Both the position numbers and the translations under genes were made by a program. The notes under the pieces are model-generated. The model had not been told where the DNA came from, made no database searches, and worked only from the letters and a program-made list of their open reading frames with translations. Of a DNA stretch of 64,000 nucleotides, positions 1 through 62,300 are shown piece by piece (position 1 is the first letter of the stretch; each line of letters starts with the position of its first letter). Origin of the DNA: an uncultured Gammaproteobacteria bacterium (lineage in GTDB: Bacteria > Pseudomonadota > Gammaproteobacteria > JAADHQ01); the NCBI GenBank assembly GCA_947258655.1, contig CAMYJD010000003.1, positions 62,001 through 126,000 on the forward strand, given 5' to 3'.

Positions 1-1011
1 CAATCCGATGACGATGGCGAGGACATAAAATTCTCCTTCTGTATCCATCCTGTAGCCCCAGAATACGACCCCGATATAGACGGCGATCGCAATCATGATC
101 CCGGCTTTCGGTCCTATACGTTCGCCGAGCTTACCGTAGAGAATAGCGGCAGGAAATCCGACAAATTGGGTCACCAGGATTGCCTCAATCAAAACGTTAT
201 TCGAGAATCCAAGGTCTTTACCATATACAGATGCCATGCGCACAATCGTGTCGACGCCGTCAATATAAAGCCAGTAACCAATCAGGAACAAGAACACTAC
301 CCGCAGGTTCCTGATTTCACGGAAGGTATGTGCGAGCTGACGAAACCCCAGGATGATCATGTTTCCCTTCGCGGCCGCGACCTTGACTGGAGGTTCCTTG
401 ACCCAGATAAGCAGGGGAATGGAAAATACCAGCCACCATAGAGCGACGAGAAAAAAAGAAAACCGGACTGCCGCATCAGTGCTGACGAATCCAAAGGATT
501 CATACCACTTCACCATGAGCACACACAGTGCGAACAAAAGACCACCGCCCAGATAACCCAGGGCGTAGCCGAAGGCCGAGACGTAGTCGACTTTCTTTTC
601 CGTGGTGATGGAACCGATCAGGGAATCATAGAACGAGATGCTGCCGGAAAATCCGATAGTAGCCAATACAAACAGGAGCAAGGCCAGGCCCCAACTGCCT
701 TGCGCGACAAATTGCAGGGCGCCGGACATTACAATGCCCAGAAACGCGAACAGGAAGAGAAAGCGCTTTTTTGCACCGCCGCGATCGGCAATGGCCCCCA
801 GAATGGGCGCAATCGCGGCGACAATCAAACTGGCTATGGAGTTGGCAGTGCCCCAATACTTGGAACTTTCCAACGGTACTAATTCTGCTGCCCAATAGTC
901 CTTGAAGACCAGGGGGGCGAATACGGTCATAATGACCACGGCATAGGCCGAATTGGCCCAGTCATACAGGGCCCAGGACACGATCTGTCTTGTTCCGTGT
1001 TGTTGACTCAC
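1..1011 (-). CDS. MFS transporter, UMF1 (Atg22-like) family, partial
   Basis: Reading the minus strand from a GTG at 1011 gives an open frame that runs off the left edge, so the C-terminus is missing (337 codons visible). Near the N-terminus is SWALYDWANSAYA, the hallmark of the UMF1 branch of the major facilitator superfamily, followed by repeated hydrophobic segments and a loop IADRGGAKKR like the MFS loop 2-3 motif. The GTG overlaps the TGA of the upstream aas-like gene by four bases, which supports this start and suggests translational coupling. The substrate is unknown for most UMF1 members. In Escherichia coli the neighbour of aas is the lysophospholipid flippase lplT, so a lipid-related substrate is an inference from context only. 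Confidence 0.85.
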   Translation of the reverse strand, partial: MSQQHGTRQIVSWALYDWANSAYAVVIMTVFAPLVFKDYWAAELVPLESSKYWGTANSIASLIVAAIAPILGAIADRGGAKKRFLFLFAFLGIVMSGALQFVAQGSWGLALLLFVLATIGFSGSISFYDSLIGSITTEKKVDYVSAFGYALGYLGGGLLFALCVLMVKWYESFGFVSTDAAVRFSFFLVALWWLVFSIPLLIWVKEPPVKVAAAKGNMIILGFRQLAHTFREIRNLRVVFLFLIGYWLYIDGVDTIVRMASVYGKDLGFSNNVLIEAILVTQFVGFPAAILYGKLGERIGPKAGIMIAIAVYIGVVFWGYRMDTEGEFYVLAIVIGL

Positions 1012-3164
1012 TGTTCGGCCACAACTTCTTCCTGCAGGGTGACATAATCGATCTTGCCACTCGGTAACAGCGGCAGATTTTTGATGATCTCTATCTTTTT
1101 GGGGATATGCAGATCACTCAAGCCCTCGTGCCTGAACCGGGCAGCCAGTTCCTTACGCCTGGCATCCTGATATTCCGTATACATGACAATCTGCTCACCC
1201 TTGGCGCGATCTGGCAGCGTGATAACGGCATGCATATATTCCGGCCAGGTCTTTGCCACCATGTTTTCAATGGCAGCCAGGGATATCATTTCTCCGCCAA
1301 TCTTGGCGAAACGCTTTGCCCGCCCACGAATATAAACATAACCGTCCTCATCGACATCAACGATATCTCCGGTATCATACCACCCGGGGCCGAACTCGGG
1401 CGTTGACGGCGGCCTGATTTCACCCGGATGCTCCGGCAACAGATAACCCTTCATGACATTTGGCCCCTTGATCTGCAGACGCTTGCCATTTTTTATTCCC
1501 GCCACATCAACAAGACGATACTCTATACCCGGGACAAAATGGCCAACGCTACCCTTGCGATAAGTCAGATCGGTGTTGGCAGCCAGCACCGGAGAGGTTT
1601 CGGTAACACCATAACCTTCCAGAATACGCAGGCCGAATTTTTCCATCCATAGGGTTTCGGTTTGTTCTTTCAGTGGCTCGGCGCCCGCAAACACATGGCG
1701 CAATGAATGAAAATCGTAGGGGTGGGCCTGATGACCATATCCATTCAGAAAGGTACTGGTCGCAAAGATAATGCTGGTATCGGTTTCATAGATCAACTCG
1801 GGGATGATTTTATAATGTAACGGCGAGGGATACTGCATGAAGCGGACACCCTGCTCCAATGGCAGGATGGTCCCGGCCGTCAAACCGAAAGAATGGAAAA
1901 TGGGCAGGAAATTCAGTAGCACATCCTTATGGCTCAGGTCGAGAATGCAGTGGGTCTGCCAGCAATTCGCGAGCAGGTTTTTATGACTGAGCGCTACCCC
2001 TTTTGGCAAACCTTCCGAGCCCGATGTGAACAGGATAATCGCAGTATCATCCGCAGACATCGATTGCTCATGTCGCTTGTAATAACTCCCGGCAAACAAC
2101 GAAAGCAGGTATGCACCGAGCTTGTCCATCAGACCAATTTCCCCGGCGATGTCCTCGACATAACGGATTTCGGTATGCTCGCTGATGACCTTTAACAGCT
2201 CCTCGAAACCACCCTCTTTTATAAAGGCGTGTGATGTATATACCACTCTGATATCGGCATTGGCGATACAACTCAGCAGGGCCTTCTTGCCTGCGCCATA
2301 ATTCAACATCGCCGGATAGCGACCGCTGATATGCAATGCGTAGATCATGACCGTGGCGATCACGGTATTCGGCAGGAACATGCCAACCGCGCGGTTCGGG
2401 CCGCTTTTCTTGCGCAGGTATCTCCCAAGCAGGATAATACGCATAAGCAATTGTCGGTAGTTCAGCGGTTTGCGCTTGATATCCTCGATAATGACATGGC
2501 CCGCACCATGTATCCTTTTTGCTCTGAGCAGAGAGCGGAACAGCGTGGTATCGTAGCTTCCGGCCTGGAATTTCGCCTCGCGCATCAATGCGCTCAGATA
2601 TTCAACCGCGGCCTCGCGACGCCTCTGCCCGCTGCATCCTTCGGGCAAATGCATTTTTCTGCCGGGCAGCACGGTCAGGGTAATGCGCGGAAACAGACGA
2701 CGCTTGACCAATCCCCGCAAGCGGGTAAAAAAGGTAAACTGACTGCCATCTATATGCACCGGCACGATTGTTGCGTCTGTCTTGTCGATAACCATCCCGG
2801 TCGACTGATATATCTTCATCAACGAGTTGTTGGTCGACAGACGCCCCTCAGGAAACAACAGGACCTTGTTGTCATGCAGCAGATAATCAATCAGTGTTTT
2901 CACTGACAGGGGATTGCGTGTATCGATGACACAGTAATTGAGCATATGCACAAAGGGCCTGGCCCACCATCGGCTAGCTGCCGTCCTGTCAATAGCATAG
3001 GCAAGCTCCGGGGAGATAAACAGTTTTATTATCAGCGCATCCAACAAGGAGGGATGATTGGCAATGACCAGCACCCTGTTACCCGCCTCATGAAAATGAC
3101 GAAGCCCTCTGACCTGGACGCGAAAGACCAGTTTCAGAATGATCTTGAAAATGCTATTTAACAT
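1008..3164 (-). CDS. aas: Aas-like bifunctional acyltransferase / acyl-ACP synthetase
   Basis: 718 residues, close to E. coli Aas (719). The N-terminal PlsC-type acyltransferase domain shows the HX4D motif in NHPSLLD (His37, Asp42) and FPEGRLS near residue 105. The rest is an AMP-forming adenylation domain with FTSGSEGLPKG (P-loop-like), EGYGVTETSP, YDTGDIVDVDEDG and the C-terminal lysine motif PLLPSGKIDY. The family activates fatty acids to acyl-ACP and re-acylates lysophospholipids (mainly lyso-PE) at the inner membrane. Its stop overlaps the start of the downstream MFS gene by four bases, so the two are probably one transcription unit. The synthetase substrate could differ from Aas, but the two-domain architecture and length argue for this assignment. 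Confidence 0.88.
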   Translation of the reverse strand: MLNSIFKIILKLVFRVQVRGLRHFHEAGNRVLVIANHPSLLDALIIKLFISPELAYAIDRTAASRWWARPFVHMLNYCVIDTRNPLSVKTLIDYLLHDNKVLLFPEGRLSTNNSLMKIYQSTGMVIDKTDATIVPVHIDGSQFTFFTRLRGLVKRRLFPRITLTVLPGRKMHLPEGCSGQRRREAAVEYLSALMREAKFQAGSYDTTLFRSLLRAKRIHGAGHVIIEDIKRKPLNYRQLLMRIILLGRYLRKKSGPNRAVGMFLPNTVIATVMIYALHISGRYPAMLNYGAGKKALLSCIANADIRVVYTSHAFIKEGGFEELLKVISEHTEIRYVEDIAGEIGLMDKLGAYLLSLFAGSYYKRHEQSMSADDTAIILFTSGSEGLPKGVALSHKNLLANCWQTHCILDLSHKDVLLNFLPIFHSFGLTAGTILPLEQGVRFMQYPSPLHYKIIPELIYETDTSIIFATSTFLNGYGHQAHPYDFHSLRHVFAGAEPLKEQTETLWMEKFGLRILEGYGVTETSPVLAANTDLTYRKGSVGHFVPGIEYRLVDVAGIKNGKRLQIKGPNVMKGYLLPEHPGEIRPPSTPEFGPGWYDTGDIVDVDEDGYVYIRGRAKRFAKIGGEMISLAAIENMVAKTWPEYMHAVITLPDRAKGEQIVMYTEYQDARRKELAARFRHEGLSDLHIPKKIEIIKNLPLLPSGKIDYVTLQEEVVAEQ

Positions 3165-3366: not shown

Positions 3367-4380
3367 TCATTGTGTCGCAGGTACTGGTCTATCTGGTTCT
3401 GTCAAAGGATGGACGCTCGGGAAATAAGGCTTTTTCTGTTCCCCGGGTCCTCCCAGGAGCCAATGGTTTTGCAGGCGTTCGCTCAAGTCATTTGCGCGTT
3501 CTATCAGGATTCGACTTTCAGAAAACAGTGCAGGAATATGCTCGCTTCCGGAGTCCATCTGGGTGATCAGATGATCCAGTTGTTCGACCACGCCTCCTAA
3601 CTCTGACAGCAATGCATTCAATTGTTCCGATGCTTTCCTGGCATTGCTGGTACTCGCTCTGATATCAGGCGCAGATGCATCCACCACACCCTGCACACTA
3701 TGACCTGCTTCGGTCCAAGCCTGAAAACCGCTCCGTGCAGACGCCGCAGCCGTGGAAACGGCCTTGACCGCGTCACGCAGGTCCTCGGTAATCGCAGAAA
3801 GGTTTTTAAGTGTTGCAGTTATAACATTCTCACTTTCACCGATCGCGCGACTGATATCAGAGAGATTGGCCAGAATCGACTTGACGTTATCCGCCATCTT
3901 GTTCAGCTCGACGTCACTGAATGTCTCTGCCAGCTCCAGTGGTTCCAACGCCGTAATCAGGGAACCTTGCTCGAGAACTTCGCCTGAAGTCTCGCCAGGT
4001 ATAAGATGCAAACCGGTCCAGCCAATTAACGCACCCAGCCCAAACGAGGATGCTACACGCAAACGGCTACCCTGCGTAATAAATTCCCGATATTCATCAG
4101 AAATGACAATATCCACGCGTACGTTACCGTCCTTACGTAGCGTGACGCTGTCAATCTGCCCGATAGGTATGCCCGCCAGACGCACGTCAGTACCGCGGAC
4201 AATATTGTGGGCCTGATTGAGGACCGTATAGTAATTAACACGGCTGACGCCCGGGCCAATTTCCTGATAACGCAGAACTATTGCAGCAATTATCACGGTT
4301 ATCACAGCAAGCACGATTAATCCGACCAGACGGTCAATATAGGTAATCTGATAAGGCTGCCTGTCTCTATTATTCGTCAT
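3367..4380 (-). CDS. MCE/MlaD-family lipid-transport protein
   Basis: 337 residues. There is one N-terminal membrane anchor (about residues 18-42), then an MCE domain recognisable from the pattern VRLAGIPIGQIDSVTL and the region ending GLHLIPG. A long helical C-terminal half (about 150-320) contains heptad-like stretches. MCE proteins form periplasmic hexamers that shuttle phospholipids or other hydrophobic molecules between membranes as the substrate-binding part of an ABC system. The start ATG overlaps the stop of the ABC-protein gene by four bases (4377-4380), making it the last gene of a lipoprotein-permease-ABC-MCE operon. The longer C-terminus is more like the single-MCE proteins with coiled-coil tails (PqiB/YebT or organic-solvent-tolerance type) than E. 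coli MlaD (183 residues). The exact substrate is not known. Confidence 0.88.
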   Translation of the reverse strand: MTNNRDRQPYQITYIDRLVGLIVLAVITVIIAAIVLRYQEIGPGVSRVNYYTVLNQAHNIVRGTDVRLAGIPIGQIDSVTLRKDGNVRVDIVISDEYREFITQGSRLRVASSFGLGALIGWTGLHLIPGETSGEVLEQGSLITALEPLELAETFSDVELNKMADNVKSILANLSDISRAIGESENVITATLKNLSAITEDLRDAVKAVSTAAASARSGFQAWTEAGHSVQGVVDASAPDIRASTSNARKASEQLNALLSELGGVVEQLDHLITQMDSGSEHIPALFSESRILIERANDLSERLQNHWLLGGPGEQKKPYFPSVHPLTEPDRPVPATQ

Positions 4381-5048
4381 GACAGCGTAGATTGCTCCAT
4401 ACCATTTTCACTAAGCTCATAAGCAATTGTTGCCAGCTCCGATAGCTGGTGCTGCCGGGTGGTCATAACCAGCGCAAAACGCTCCTCTGCCTGATAACTA
4501 CTTATGGCATCGATCACAGTTTGTTTATAATGCAGTGGCATGCCATCAAGAATAGCATCAATTAGAATCAGACGGGGACGACAGATCAAAGCACGTGCCA
4601 GATTGACCAGACGTGCCTGGGCGATATTCAGGTCATCAGGAACAAGCTCGAGCAGATCGTGGATACCCAGGACTGTCGCGATACGACTGACGTTTGCAGC
4701 CAGTTCCTTACGACTGAAATTATAATGATAGGCCAGCGGCAGGGCAATGTTATCAGTCACATTCAATAGACTTATTAGACCTCCGTGCCGATAGACAAAG
4801 CCAATCTGCTCGCGCATTCTGGACAACTCCCTGGAGGGGTGCGTAGCGGTCAGGTCCTTGCCTTGAAAAATCAATTTGCCAGTCACATCGCTCACCATAC
4901 CTGCCAGGGCCTGTAACAGGCAGGTACCCAGCAACAGTACTCCAGAATTGATAACAACACAGTCTCCTTCATCAACATTGAACGATATGTTGTTAATGAC
5001 TGTTTCAGAGTCACAGGGTATATGTAAGTCCTGTACGCTTAGAATCAT
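4377..5048 (-). CDS. MlaF-like ABC protein with degenerate ATPase motifs
   Basis: 223 residues from the ATG at 5048, which forms a TAATG overlap with the permease stop; a longer upstream reading would run through the permease gene. The overall fold pattern of an MCE-type ABC ATPase is clear, but the catalytic elements are not. The Walker A region around residues 34-50 lacks GxGKST (the lysine position aligns with Gly41). The Q-loop glutamine is Arg87, the signature LSGGQ reads LNIAQ (140-144), and Walker B keeps Asp164 but has Ala165 for the catalytic Glu. The H-loop His is Thr197. The frame is intact and fully coupled to its neighbours, so this is not a simple pseudogene. It probably binds the permease without hydrolysing ATP, or dimerises with an ATPase encoded elsewhere. 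Confidence 0.85.
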   Translation of the reverse strand: MILSVQDLHIPCDSETVINNISFNVDEGDCVVINSGVLLLGTCLLQALAGMVSDVTGKLIFQGKDLTATHPSRELSRMREQIGFVYRHGGLISLLNVTDNIALPLAYHYNFSRKELAANVSRIATVLGIHDLLELVPDDLNIAQARLVNLARALICRPRLILIDAILDGMPLHYKQTVIDAISSYQAEERFALVMTTRQHQLSELATIAYELSENGMEQSTLS

Positions 5049-5833
5049 TATTGGTATGCCAATATCGATATTATTATATTGACAAACAGCACCAATACCA
5101 ATGCCCGGGTCGTCGCGATAGACATTCCACGCGCGACCCGTGTCAGGCGGGCCTCGATTGTCGAACCATAATGTAGTGCATACAAACCAATAATCAGTCC
5201 ACTGACAACACATTTGATCACAATAACGAGGATTTCATTAAGTTGCACGCGTGTAAGGATATTATCAATCAGTAGCGCCGCACCGATCCCCGGGTCCAGT
5301 AGCCACAAGGTTATAAATGCTGCACTCATACTGAAGAACAGGAAGTAGATCAACATCAGCAACATCGAGATCGGAAACGCAAAAAATACCGGCACCAGAA
5401 ACAGGTGCACAGGATCAATGCCCAGTGTTTTGGCAATATCAAACTCTCCAGACATTTTTAGATAGCCAATCTTTGCGGTGACCGCAGTCCCGGAGCGCAC
5501 AATTGCTATCAGTGCACACATAATGGGGGCAAGCTCGCGAATGATAACAACAACGAACAGCTCCGCAAATACTGACACAGTCTGCTCACCCGGCGAAATT
5601 TCAGGAAGTTTGAATACCAGTAGCGAGCCTATCAATATGGAGATGACGGCGGTGACATAAAAACCCTGCACTCCAGTATAGTAGATTTGCAGCCTGTACA
5701 GTTTGTAGAAAACCAGCCTGCGACTGCTATGCGCGATAGAGAGTCTGGATGATATCAGCAGTGATAGCAGCCCCAGCATATCACCACTGCGTTTCAGCGT
5801 CTGGAGTACATGCCTGCCTATCGCTTCCAGCAT
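5048..5833 (-). CDS. MlaE-family ABC transporter permease
   Basis: 261 residues with five to six strongly hydrophobic segments and the conserved MlaE/Ttg2B block IRELAPIMCALIAIVRSGTA followed by TAKIG, the coupling-helix region that contacts the ATPase. The family forms the inner-membrane channel of MCE lipid transporters. It overlaps the downstream ABC gene by one base (TAATG) and begins four bases after the upstream lipoprotein gene, so the operon order is lipoprotein, permease, ABC protein, MCE protein. The region that normally contacts MlaF is conserved here even though the partner ATPase encoded next door is degenerate. Confidence 0.9.
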   Translation of the reverse strand: MLEAIGRHVLQTLKRSGDMLGLLSLLISSRLSIAHSSRRLVFYKLYRLQIYYTGVQGFYVTAVISILIGSLLVFKLPEISPGEQTVSVFAELFVVVIIRELAPIMCALIAIVRSGTAVTAKIGYLKMSGEFDIAKTLGIDPVHLFLVPVFFAFPISMLLMLIYFLFFSMSAAFITLWLLDPGIGAALLIDNILTRVQLNEILVIVIKCVVSGLIIGLYALHYGSTIEARLTRVARGMSIATTRALVLVLFVNIIISILAYQ

Positions 5834-5837
5834 AATC

Positions 5838-6626
5838 CTAGAGCCTGCTCAGCTCTGCCTCTATTGCTTGCGCCCTGACGTTATCACCCAGCGAAATAAT
5901 AACTGCGAGCGCGCGCTTATAGTATTGCCTGGCCACAGCCAGGTGTCCGTTTTCTATATTAATTTGCGCCAGCAGATGCAATGCATTCGCGATTCCGCGA
6001 TGATGGTCAATCTTCTTGAACAATTCCAGGGCAGTCTCTGCCGCATCCAGATGGCGACGCTTGCTAGCATATTCATACAATACATAGGCAAAGTCCTCGG
6101 GGGCATCATCAGCCTGATCTATTTTTGTCTCAATCAGCCGGTATGCTTCATCCACTCTGTTCAGGTAGGTGAGTACAACGGCCCGCTGAATAGGGCCTGG
6201 AGATATTTTCAGCGTCTTCTCGAAATCTGCCTGTCGACCTGTCAACCTGGCTTCAAGTAAATAGCTGTCATAGAGATATTCAGGCGCCTGTAGCATTTCC
6301 GCAATCGCTTTTGCCTGTGCCAGGTTTCGGCGCGCGTAATCTGTTTCCCCTGTTCTGATATAGATGCGCACCAGTTTCAGATGGCAGCGAAGCTGGCCCT
6401 CGCGCTCGTCAACCAACGAATACAGATGCAATGCACGCTGCAGGTCGGCAAGTGCCTGCTGCGGTGAGGTGTAAACTGTTTGCGCACTGACCCTGGCCTC
6501 CAGTTTACGCGCATGCTGTAATGAAGGCGGTTCCGAAGATGTGGGCGGTGCGGCGCAGGCCACAATACATGGCACAAGTACAGCTGTCAGTGCACCCCGA
6601 ATATGCCGTATCAACATTGCCAGCAT
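5838..6626 (-). CDS. TPR-like lipoprotein of the MCE operon
   Basis: 262 residues. The N-terminus is a lipoprotein signal (hydrophobic stretch about 10-23 with IVACAAP, lipidation Cys at about 24). The mature part is almost all helical, with TPR-like repeats: ALADLQRALHLYS, ARRNLAQAKAIAEML, AAETALELFKKI and ARQYYKRALAVI. It is the first gene of the MCE operon and probably a periplasmic or outer-membrane scaffold for the transporter. It takes the place where Mla systems usually carry MlaC or a STAS protein. The function is not established by sequence. Confidence 0.75.
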   Translation of the reverse strand: MLAMLIRHIRGALTAVLVPCIVACAAPPTSSEPPSLQHARKLEARVSAQTVYTSPQQALADLQRALHLYSLVDEREGQLRCHLKLVRIYIRTGETDYARRNLAQAKAIAEMLQAPEYLYDSYLLEARLTGRQADFEKTLKISPGPIQRAVVLTYLNRVDEAYRLIETKIDQADDAPEDFAYVLYEYASKRRHLDAAETALELFKKIDHHRGIANALHLLAQINIENGHLAVARQYYKRALAVIISLGDNVRAQAIEAELSRL

Positions 6627-59351: not shown

Positions 59352-62300
59352 TCAGGCTTTTTGCTTGCGTTTGCTGCGGCGCAGGCGTGACAATAAGCGG
59401 CGCGCCATTTCCCCGAACATCTCGGTCTGGGTCGGATGCGGATGGATGGCCTGGGCGACCTGCTCGAGCGTCATGTCCGCCGATACCATCATGACCCCTT
59501 CACCGATCAGCGTATCGGCATGGTCGGCGAGGTAATGCACACCGACAATGCGATGTGTGGCCTTATCGGCCACAATCTTGATCATGCCATGAATTTCATT
59601 GGTAATCATAGCCTTGGCATCAATACTCATCGGCATTTTAACCTCGACCGCATCGATACCCTTGGCCTTGGCCTGCTCAACCGACAGCCCGACGAAGGCT
59701 GCCTCGGGGCGGGTAAAGATGACGCCACTGTCCTTGTCCTGGTCATAGCGCATGTCTTCGCCCAGGATCGTGGCCGCAGCCACCCGGCCCTGCTGGCCTG
59801 CCGTGTGCGCCAGCATCAGCCCGCCGATCACATCACCCACAGCAAAAACATGGGAAATATTACTGCGACCACGTGCGTCGACACTGATAACGCCCTTATC
59901 GCTGGCGATCCCGGCCTTGTCCAGCTGCAGCGGCTCAAGCACGGGGCGTTTACCCGTCGCCATGACGACATAATCGCAACTGAAGGTATGGTCCTTGCCA
60001 TCCTCACCGCTGTAGACCAGCTTCATCGCCCCCGGCTCACCCTTGATGGATTTGACCTGGACCGATGTCAGGATATTCAGGTTCGGATCTTCATTCAGTA
60101 CCGCGGTCAGGTGCTTGGCTATCTCAGGCTCAACCTCGGCCAGAATCCTGTCCTGTCCTTCCAGTAACGTCACCTTGCTGCCGAAGTCCTGGAAAATCTG
60201 CGCCATTTCCATACCGATCGCACCACCACCGATGACGCCGAGGCGTTTGGGTACGCCTTGCAGACCCCAGACCGTATCCGACGTCAATACACCACCCTTG
60301 TCGAGTGCTTCATGGGCACCGGGAATCGGTGGCACGAATGGTGGTGCACCGGTGGCAATCACGGCACAACCGAAACGGATACGCTCCCCTGCCGTGCCAT
60401 CACCGAGCGGCGCACGTTGATGCGGATTGTCGTTATTCGCCGACGTATCGACGAACAGGGTATGATCATCCTCGAAGCGAGCAAAGCCCTGGATCACCTT
60501 GATCTTGACACCCTTGTCGGTCTTCAAGGCCATATCGCCACGTGTTTCGAGAACATGCCGGCGTGTCTGCTCCAGTTTGTCCCAGTTCAGTTTGGCCTTG
60601 TTAGTCCCTTCGACACCCAGATGTTCATCATGGGCACGGTCACGCATACGGTCTGCCGCAGCGCGCCAGGCCTTCGATGGTATACAGCCACGCCACAGAC
60701 ATTCGCCGCCCGGGAATGGACTATCGTTGACCATCGCGACCTTGATACCGTGCTCGGCCAGATCGCGTGCACAATCTTCTCCACCGGGTCCGCCACCGAT
60801 AACGACAACGTCATAGTCCCAGTCACCTTCCGGAATCGCCGGCCCGACTGGCCCCATCCATGATTCCGGTTGTTCGATCAGACCCTTCAGTGTATTCAGA
60901 TAGAGTGCGACCTCGGCACCGTTGACGACGCGATGATCCGCGGTCACAGTCAACGGCATACCAGCGGGGCCGGCCGATGATATCGCCAATATTGCCGCGG
61001 TACCCGGGGTCGGTATCGCATCAAAATAACTGACCCCCAACATACCCATATTGGAAACCATAAAGGTCGGATTGGCATATTCCTCGGGTGCCAGGCGGCG
61101 TTTACGCGCACGATCCAGAAGGCCTTTCCATTCCTCATTGAGGGATTCGAGGCTGCTGGATTCACAGGCACGCAGGACCGGCACCACGAGGCCGCCACCG
61201 TCTGCAGATACGGCCATGCCGATATCAACCTGACTGCGTTCAACCAGTTTGTCGACCGGCTGGTAACACCAGTTCATGGTCGGATGTTGTTGCATCGCCA
61301 GGGCACAGGCCTTGGCAATTGTAACTGTGACCGAAACGCCCTTCTGCTTCGAGGCCTTTATCAGTGCATCGGGTTTTGCATCGACCGTAACGTGGAACGT
61401 CGGCATGCTCAGCGATGAAGTCATCGACTGACTGATCGCGCGTTCCATTGCATTCATGGCTCGGCCTTCACCCGGCACGTCCACCTGCATCACACCGGCA
61501 GCAGCGGCCGCCGGTGCAGCCGCCTGGCTTGATGCCACGTCGGTAGAGGTAATCACGCCACCCGGACCACTGCCGTGCATGCTATTAAGATCGATACCGC
61601 TCTGACCGGCCAGTTTGCGTGCATACGGTGTTGCCTGTTTGCTGTGTGGGCGCGGGGCCGGTGCAGCTTTACCTGCGGCCTGGATGACATGACTGGCACT
61701 TGTGGCAGCGACAGGCTCTGCGGCAACGGGAGGCTTTTCCCCGGTGCCGGCAGCAGCGGCCTGGACGACGGCGCTTTCGCGCACGACCTTATCCGCGTCT
61801 TCGACCAGATAGGCCATTGCTCCACCGACAGCGACGACGCTGTCAACTTCCGCTATCGGGCCTGACAGATAACCATCACGAAACACCTCGACATCCATGA
61901 TCGCCTTGTCGGTCTCGACCTGGGCAACGACGTCACCACGTTCTATCTTGTCACCGGGAGCCTTCGTCCATTCAACTACAATCCCCTCGGTCATGGTGTC
62001 CGACAACTGCGGCATCTTGATTGTGTAAATACTGCCTTCCGGTTCGGCTGCTGCTGGTGTGGGTGCCTGCTGCTCGCCTGTGCTTTCCGTCGTCTCTGCC
62101 ACGTCAGCTTGCGGTGCTCGTTCGGCTACCGCTGCTGTAGCGCCTGCCTCACCCTGCTGGACTTCATCTGCAGAAGCGACGATATAGGCAATCGCGTCCC
62201 CTACAGCAACAGTACTGTCAACGGCCGCAATCGGTCCGGACAAATAACCTTCGCGGAATACCTCGACGTCCATAATCGCCTTGTCGGTCTCAACCGTTGC

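Follow-up and report, generated by a model that had tools for sequence, protein, structure and literature searches.

A family of Mla/MCE-type operons whose MlaF-type ABC protein is predicted to be a remodelled pseudo-ATPase

Background

In an ABC dimer, each ATP is held between the Walker A, Walker B, Q- and H-loops of one subunit and the signature motif of the other. To our knowledge, ABC transporters are defined by ATP-driven nucleotide-binding domains (NBDs), and the degenerate ones that are known retain one working site. Heterodimeric exporters of the TM287/288, TmrAB and CFTR class are described as having an ABC domain that has lost catalytic residues and is kept by selection, with one full site remaining (excerpt of PMC7756269). 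In E. coli MlaFEDB, the Walker A substitution K47R of MlaF is described as leaving neither ATPase activity nor complementation (excerpt of PMC5016091), and K47A and E170Q are described as failing to complement (excerpt of PMC7367683). In PqiABC and LetAB the inner-membrane partner of the MCE protein is free of any ATPase, and Pqi includes an outer-membrane lipoprotein; according to its authors, PqiA, if it is a transporter, could act passively, via an unidentified ATPase, or by the proton motive force (excerpt of PMC10897342). Veillonella parvula MlaEFD is a three-gene core with an elongated MCE protein that has been proposed as an envelope bridge, and the excerpted account mentions no inactive NBD (PMC10665443).

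We have analysed a 64,000-nucleotide stretch of DNA (hereafter the window) from an uncultured gammaproteobacterium, positions 62,001 to 126,000 of contig CAMYJD010000003.1. It carries an operon of Mla type in which the sole NBD appears to have no ATP site. A search of titles and abstract starts in open-licence PMC found no description of an MCE system whose MlaF-type NBD is inactive.

Methods

Motif positions in the ABC protein of the window (P0001) were set by alignment to the intact MlaF paralogs of its own genome. The permease was searched against a class sample of 369 genomes, and the genome_contigs scan with four permeases used two peptide patterns. The family set comprised 41 rows, P0001 included, from which the duplicates L009, L010 and L081 were dropped and to which the copy of genome G234 was added, giving 39 rows. 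Controls were 28 ABC proteins encoded beside ordinary MlaE genes, or close paralogs of such proteins; 23 were picked by HMM match (25 of 26 loci yielded an ABC protein) and five because they contain both the Walker A and the LSGG motif. Before counting, we removed from the controls two duplicates, a truncated row and the partly degenerate L049. Conservation of the replacement residues was counted over 37 rows, with the window's genus excluded.

Results

Organization of the operon and comparison with described systems

Read on the minus strand, the order is TPR lipoprotein, MlaE-family permease, ABC-domain protein, MCE protein and Aas-like gene (Table 1). The permease and ABC genes have one base in common (5048), the end of the ABC gene and the MCE gene share four bases (4377-4380), and 4377-5048 on the minus strand translates to 223 aa with zero internal stops. 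The first-pass annotation had described an intact frame coupled by overlaps to both neighbours, and this holds. The MCE gene is separated from the Aas-like gene by 202 bases. Because an Aas-like gene lies beside only 1 of 38 family loci, that of the congener, the enzyme is probably not part of the transport system. The congener's Aas-like gene (L069:10867-12982) consists of two open frames, and the window copy (1008-3164) is one intact frame of 718 aa. A scan for promoters and terminators gave nothing decisive.

Table 1. Genes of the operon and its downstream neighbour, and ATP-site positions of the ABC protein, in window coordinates
Feature	Position	Strand	Basis or remark
TPR protein with lipobox-like signal (P0004, 262 aa)	5838..6626	-	First gene of the operon; lipobox read from sequence
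MlaE-family permease (P0002, 261 aa)	5048..5833	-	Pfam PF02405, 115.6 bits; structural model
Predicted pseudo-ATPase, MlaF-type NBD without competent ATP site (P0001, 223 aa)	4377..5048	-	Pfam, alignment, model
Long MCE-domain protein (P0003, 337 aa)	3367..4380	-	Pfam PF02470, 42.6 bits
Aas-like acyltransferase/acyl-ACP ligase (P0005, 718 aa)	1008..3164	-	Downstream neighbour
Walker A position, residues 35-42, SGVLLLGT (intact GxSGxGK(S/T)); Lys to Gly41	4923..4946	-	Alignment
Q-loop position; Gln to Arg87 (Glu in rest of family)	4788..4790	-	Alignment
Signature position, residues 140-144; LSGGM to LNIAQ (LNDVQ in most of family)	4617..4631	-	Alignment
Walker B Asp164 kept; catalytic Glu to Ala165	4554..4559	-	Alignment
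H-loop position; His to Arg198	4455..4457	-	Alignment

The three components of an Mla-type system, namely an MlaE-family permease, an MCE/MlaD-domain protein and an NBD of MlaF fold, are all present, and a competent ATP site is absent from P0001. The AlphaFold2 model of P0001, built on a 28-sequence alignment, has an NBD fold with a mean pLDDT of 89.3, and its best Foldseek match is E. coli MlaF (6xbd; TMq 0.90). The permease model (pLDDT 83.5) best matches MlaE of 6xbd (TMq 0.87). The permease also retains, as in intact MlaE, the segment R-S-x-x-A-x-T-A-x-I...E/Q...P, which we take to be the site of the coupling helix.

The operon resembles MlaFEDB in both of these folds, in its MCE partner and in its operon logic, but its NBD lacks the ATP-site motifs. 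P0001 (223 aa; family median 218) is also shorter than the E. coli MlaF chain (269 aa) and is missing the C-terminal extension of MlaF. No STAS/MlaB protein was found by Pfam among the five scanned proteins (the operon and its downstream neighbour), and the operon has in addition a long MCE protein (337 aa; family median 330 over 37 loci) and a TPR lipoprotein. Like PqiABC and LetAB, it has an MCE protein and an inner-membrane partner without an ATPase, in that the site here is predicted to be incompetent, and a lipoprotein, here putatively in the outer membrane, as in Pqi (excerpt of PMC10897342). Unlike them, it has an MlaE-type permease with a pseudo-NBD instead of a PqiA/LetA-type membrane protein, and its lipoprotein is a TPR protein, not PqiC-like. 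The three-gene core and elongated MCE protein are shared with V. parvula MlaEFD, from which the operon differs in its predicted inactive NBD (excerpt of PMC10665443).

The ATP site of the ABC protein

P0001 scores 43.3 bits against Pfam ABC_tran, and because this cut-off is passed, automatic annotation likely labels proteins of the family as ATP-binding. The first-pass annotation had listed the Walker A Lys, the Q-loop, the signature Ser and Gly, the catalytic Glu and the H-loop His as changed, and alignment with the MlaF paralogs confirmed each of these (Table 1). The D-loop Asp is replaced as well, by Pro171. Three of the ATP-site residues that we compared are still as expected, namely the Walker B Asp, the Walker A Thr and the opening Leu of the signature. 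In the degenerate-site exporters one complete site is left and the degenerate site still binds ATP, whereas P0001 has lost both halves of the site in one polypeptide, including the Walker A Lys.

A family of degenerate NBDs

Permease matches at E 4e-54 or better occurred in four of the 369 genomes of the class (G000, G003, G234 and G302), and the next best match was at 1e-22. The pattern scan with four permeases recovered at least 38 family loci, which is a lower bound; they include Catenovulum, Alteromonas, Marisediminitalea, Aestuariibacter and Pseudoalteromonas denitrificans, as well as MAGs named Colwellia and Methylophaga. In a phylum survey with the permease profile, 2 of 398 genomes passed E 1e-30 besides the window's own, and one survey match, L108, is a locus with intact ABC motifs. 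The other, at L107:1372-2154 (G713), is a lone MlaE-like gene between a cyclase-like gene and thrS, with no ABC or MCE gene in the 3.6 kb examined. No relatives of the pseudo-NBD were found in viral contigs.

A homologous ABC gene adjoins the permease gene at 37 of the 38 loci, and the exception, L083, shares its permease with G234. The G234 operon is split (L041, L112), with the permease alone on one contig and the pseudo-NBD and MCE genes together on another. A permease working without any NBD in G234 was considered and rejected, since its pseudo-NBD and MCE genes sit on that other contig.

Across the 39 family rows, the Walker A Lys is never present (Gly in 30, Ala in 8, Ser in 1), nor are the Q-loop Gln (Glu in 37, Arg in 2), the second signature Gly or the H-loop His, and the signature Ser survives in a single row (Asn in 38). 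No row has lost the Walker B Asp or the Walker A Ser/Thr (39/39). The catalytic Glu is kept in 37/39, with Ala in both rows of the window's genus; the idea, taken from the window alone, that its loss extends throughout the family was wrong, as it is confined to those two rows. Of the 28 controls, 27 have the full set of Lys, Gln, Ser, Gly and His, although five controls are biased because they were selected on Walker A and LSGG motifs; the remaining control has a Q-loop Glu. Alignment with MlaF homologues and a hunt for degenerate relatives, both proposed at the outset, thus led to 39 non-redundant gammaproteobacterial members, marine bacteria among their hosts, that all lack the same core residues.

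Two other NBDs deserve mention. The MlaF-type NBD at L056 is intact except for its Q-loop, where Glu replaces Gln as it does in the pseudo-NBD family. In another MCE operon (L049:2289-3008, genome G211), the NBD is partly degenerate, with Walker A intact (GEHGAGKS), the Q-loop Gln replaced by Gly, LSGG by MSES, the catalytic Glu by Asn and the H-loop His by Lys; no close relative of it was found in 55 genomes.

Remodelled motifs and a second step in the window's genus

In an IQ-TREE tree of 67 rows, a branch supported at 99/98 separates all 38 family rows from the rest; the program gave a long-branch warning, and the nearest outgroup of the family is tentative. With the window's genus set aside, the residues invariant over all 37 rows are, in P0001 numbering, Asp39, Gly40, Glu87, Gly90, Ser93, His108, Leu140, Asp142, Arg146, Asp164, Glu165, Gly169, Met170 and Thr196, and Asn141 and Gln144 are each present in 36. 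The replacement motifs of the family can be written DGG-T/S, E, LNDVQ and DE...GM. Position 39, with its fixed Asp, is variable among intact NBDs, and free drift is seen only at the H-loop position (entropy rank 109 of 217). Because the lost motifs give way to other rigidly conserved residues, the ABC protein of the family is, as judged by its sequence, a remodelled pseudo-ATPase and not a decayed one. The first-pass annotation of a single dead ABC protein was right as to the losses, but what it described is shared by an entire clade that has replacement motifs of its own.

In the window's genus, Leu39, Arg87, Ile/Val142 and Ala165 stand in place of four of the acids. By this alignment the genus is a second step, in which most of the acidic set has been lost too.

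Conservation and selection within the genus

Genome G003, a separate assembly from the same genus, carries the operon, and its ABC protein is 79% identical to P0001 and has the same losses. Between window and congener, the ABC gene has a Nei-Gojobori dN/dS of 0.085, a value matched by the MCE gene (0.086) and close to that of the permease (0.051); the TPR lipoprotein gives 0.195. These ratios are approximate, as dS is above 1 (1.2-1.8). By these estimates the ABC gene is under strong purifying selection. The operon is patchy within the genus, being present in G000 and G003, and no ortholog was found in G001 and G002 (95% and 79% complete).

Gene clusters around the operon in relatives

Out of 38 loci, 31 have LPP20-type proteins near the operon, 32 a TPR protein that probably has a membrane segment, and 30 a GNA1162-like/beta-helix lipoprotein, and the operon's own TPR lipoprotein was found at 28. 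These counts are rough, since several contigs are short and there is some overlap, or relatedness, between the proteins matched by the two LPP20 searches and by the beta-helix search. At L102, L072, L076 and L093 the pseudo-NBD operon is embedded in long runs of genes for LPP20-like, GNA1162-like, beta-helix and TPR envelope proteins, which may represent an undescribed envelope system. No such wider cluster was found beside the operon at L069, L071, L081, L083 and L087, which are among the loci nearest to the window by tree or permease type. A search for the beta-helix lipoprotein drew a blank in G000, G003 and G302, and G234 gave two partial, weak matches.

Discussion

We put the probability at roughly 70% that the operon encodes an Mla/MCE-type lipid conduit with a structural pseudo-ATPase NBD and no ATP cycle at that subunit; the transporter probably has no ATP motor of its own, and independence of ATP is likely. 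An earlier suggestion that the protein is a pseudo-ATPase bridging the permease is well supported by the NBD fold, the docking segment, purifying selection and the family-wide loss. The pseudo-NBD would dock on the MlaE-type dimer from the cytoplasm, at the coupling segments, and would hold or gate that dimer mechanically without an ATP cycle. The MCE protein would span the periplasm, its oligomer carrying a putative lipid cargo toward an outer-membrane contact that would include the TPR lipoprotein, itself predicted in the outer membrane. The lipid would move passively, down a gradient or toward a sink, or by another source of energy, e.g. the proton motive force, and PqiABC may on the best reading be the nearest analogy for energetics. 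In evolutionary terms, the ancestor of the family would have swapped its ATP site for a set of acidic motifs that then stayed fixed, and most of this set would later have been lost in the window's genus.

The pseudo-NBD might pair with an intact MlaF-like ATPase of another operon in a mixed dimer, the partner hydrolysing ATP, and heterodimeric ABC exporters with one degenerate site are known (excerpt of PMC7756269). The search for a second MlaF in the genome found three intact MlaF-like ATPases (E 2e-115, 1e-61 and 9e-61; next 5e-37), but each adjoins its own MlaE permease and MCE gene, and no orphan MlaF was found in that genome. Moreover, the Walker side and the signature side are both lost in one polypeptide, so that a homodimer would contain no site at all and pairing with an intact NBD would yield only two half sites; a complete composite site, as in degenerate heterodimers, is not obtained. 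The earlier proposal of pairing with an ATPase elsewhere thus goes unsupported, and we regard it as quite improbable. It is very improbable that the protein is still an ATPase, working through non-canonical residues or unusual ATP contacts: the Walker B Asp and Walker A Ser/Thr of all members, and the catalytic Glu of most, would suit such an enzyme, but the Lys, Gln, second signature Gly and His are gone from every member, the window's genus lacks the catalytic Glu too, and single changes of this kind are described as inactivating E. coli MlaF (excerpts of PMC5016091 and PMC7367683). A decaying pseudogene or a sequencing error, the latter raised earlier, might be suggested by the extreme motif loss in the window's genus, but is scarcely credible: the low dN/dS and the clade-wide losses with invariant replacement residues contradict it, the frame has no stops, and the congener's separate assembly shows the same losses.

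What speaks most strongly against a mere scaffold is that, outside the window's genus, every row retains the catalytic Glu (37/39 overall) together with the Walker B Asp and the Walker A Ser/Thr, residues for which a pure scaffold would have no use. On this basis the old ATP site could instead be a nucleotide-free ligand or cation pocket through which a regulatory pseudo-NBD gates the permease. Four acids (Asp39, Glu87, Asp164 and Glu165) and a Ser/Thr are fixed at phosphate-binding positions in most family members, Asp39, Glu87, Asp142, Asp164 and Glu165 are each invariant outside the window's genus, and Asp39 sits where intact NBDs vary. Against this, the genus has lost four of these five acids and the gene is still under selection, which means that a pocket is not needed there. 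We hold it to be unlikely that an acidic, nucleotide-free pocket, perhaps for a divalent cation, gates or locks the permease in this clade, which would make it an ABC transporter with no requirement for ATP, and that the window's genus has lost it to become a permanently locked conduit, perhaps via an Arg87-Asp164 salt bridge.

Conclusions

We conclude that the operon is a real, conserved variant of the Mla/MCE transporter with a family-wide predicted pseudo-ATPase, of which no description was found in titles and abstract starts of open-licence PMC. An operon whose sole NBD has no predicted ATP site, yet is selected and remodelled, would part the structural role of an NBD from its role as a motor, and bears on whether MCE systems can move lipid across the envelope without ATP. 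The occurrence of the family in cultured hosts (Alteromonas, Catenovulum, Marisediminitalea and Pseudoalteromonas) opens it to experiment.
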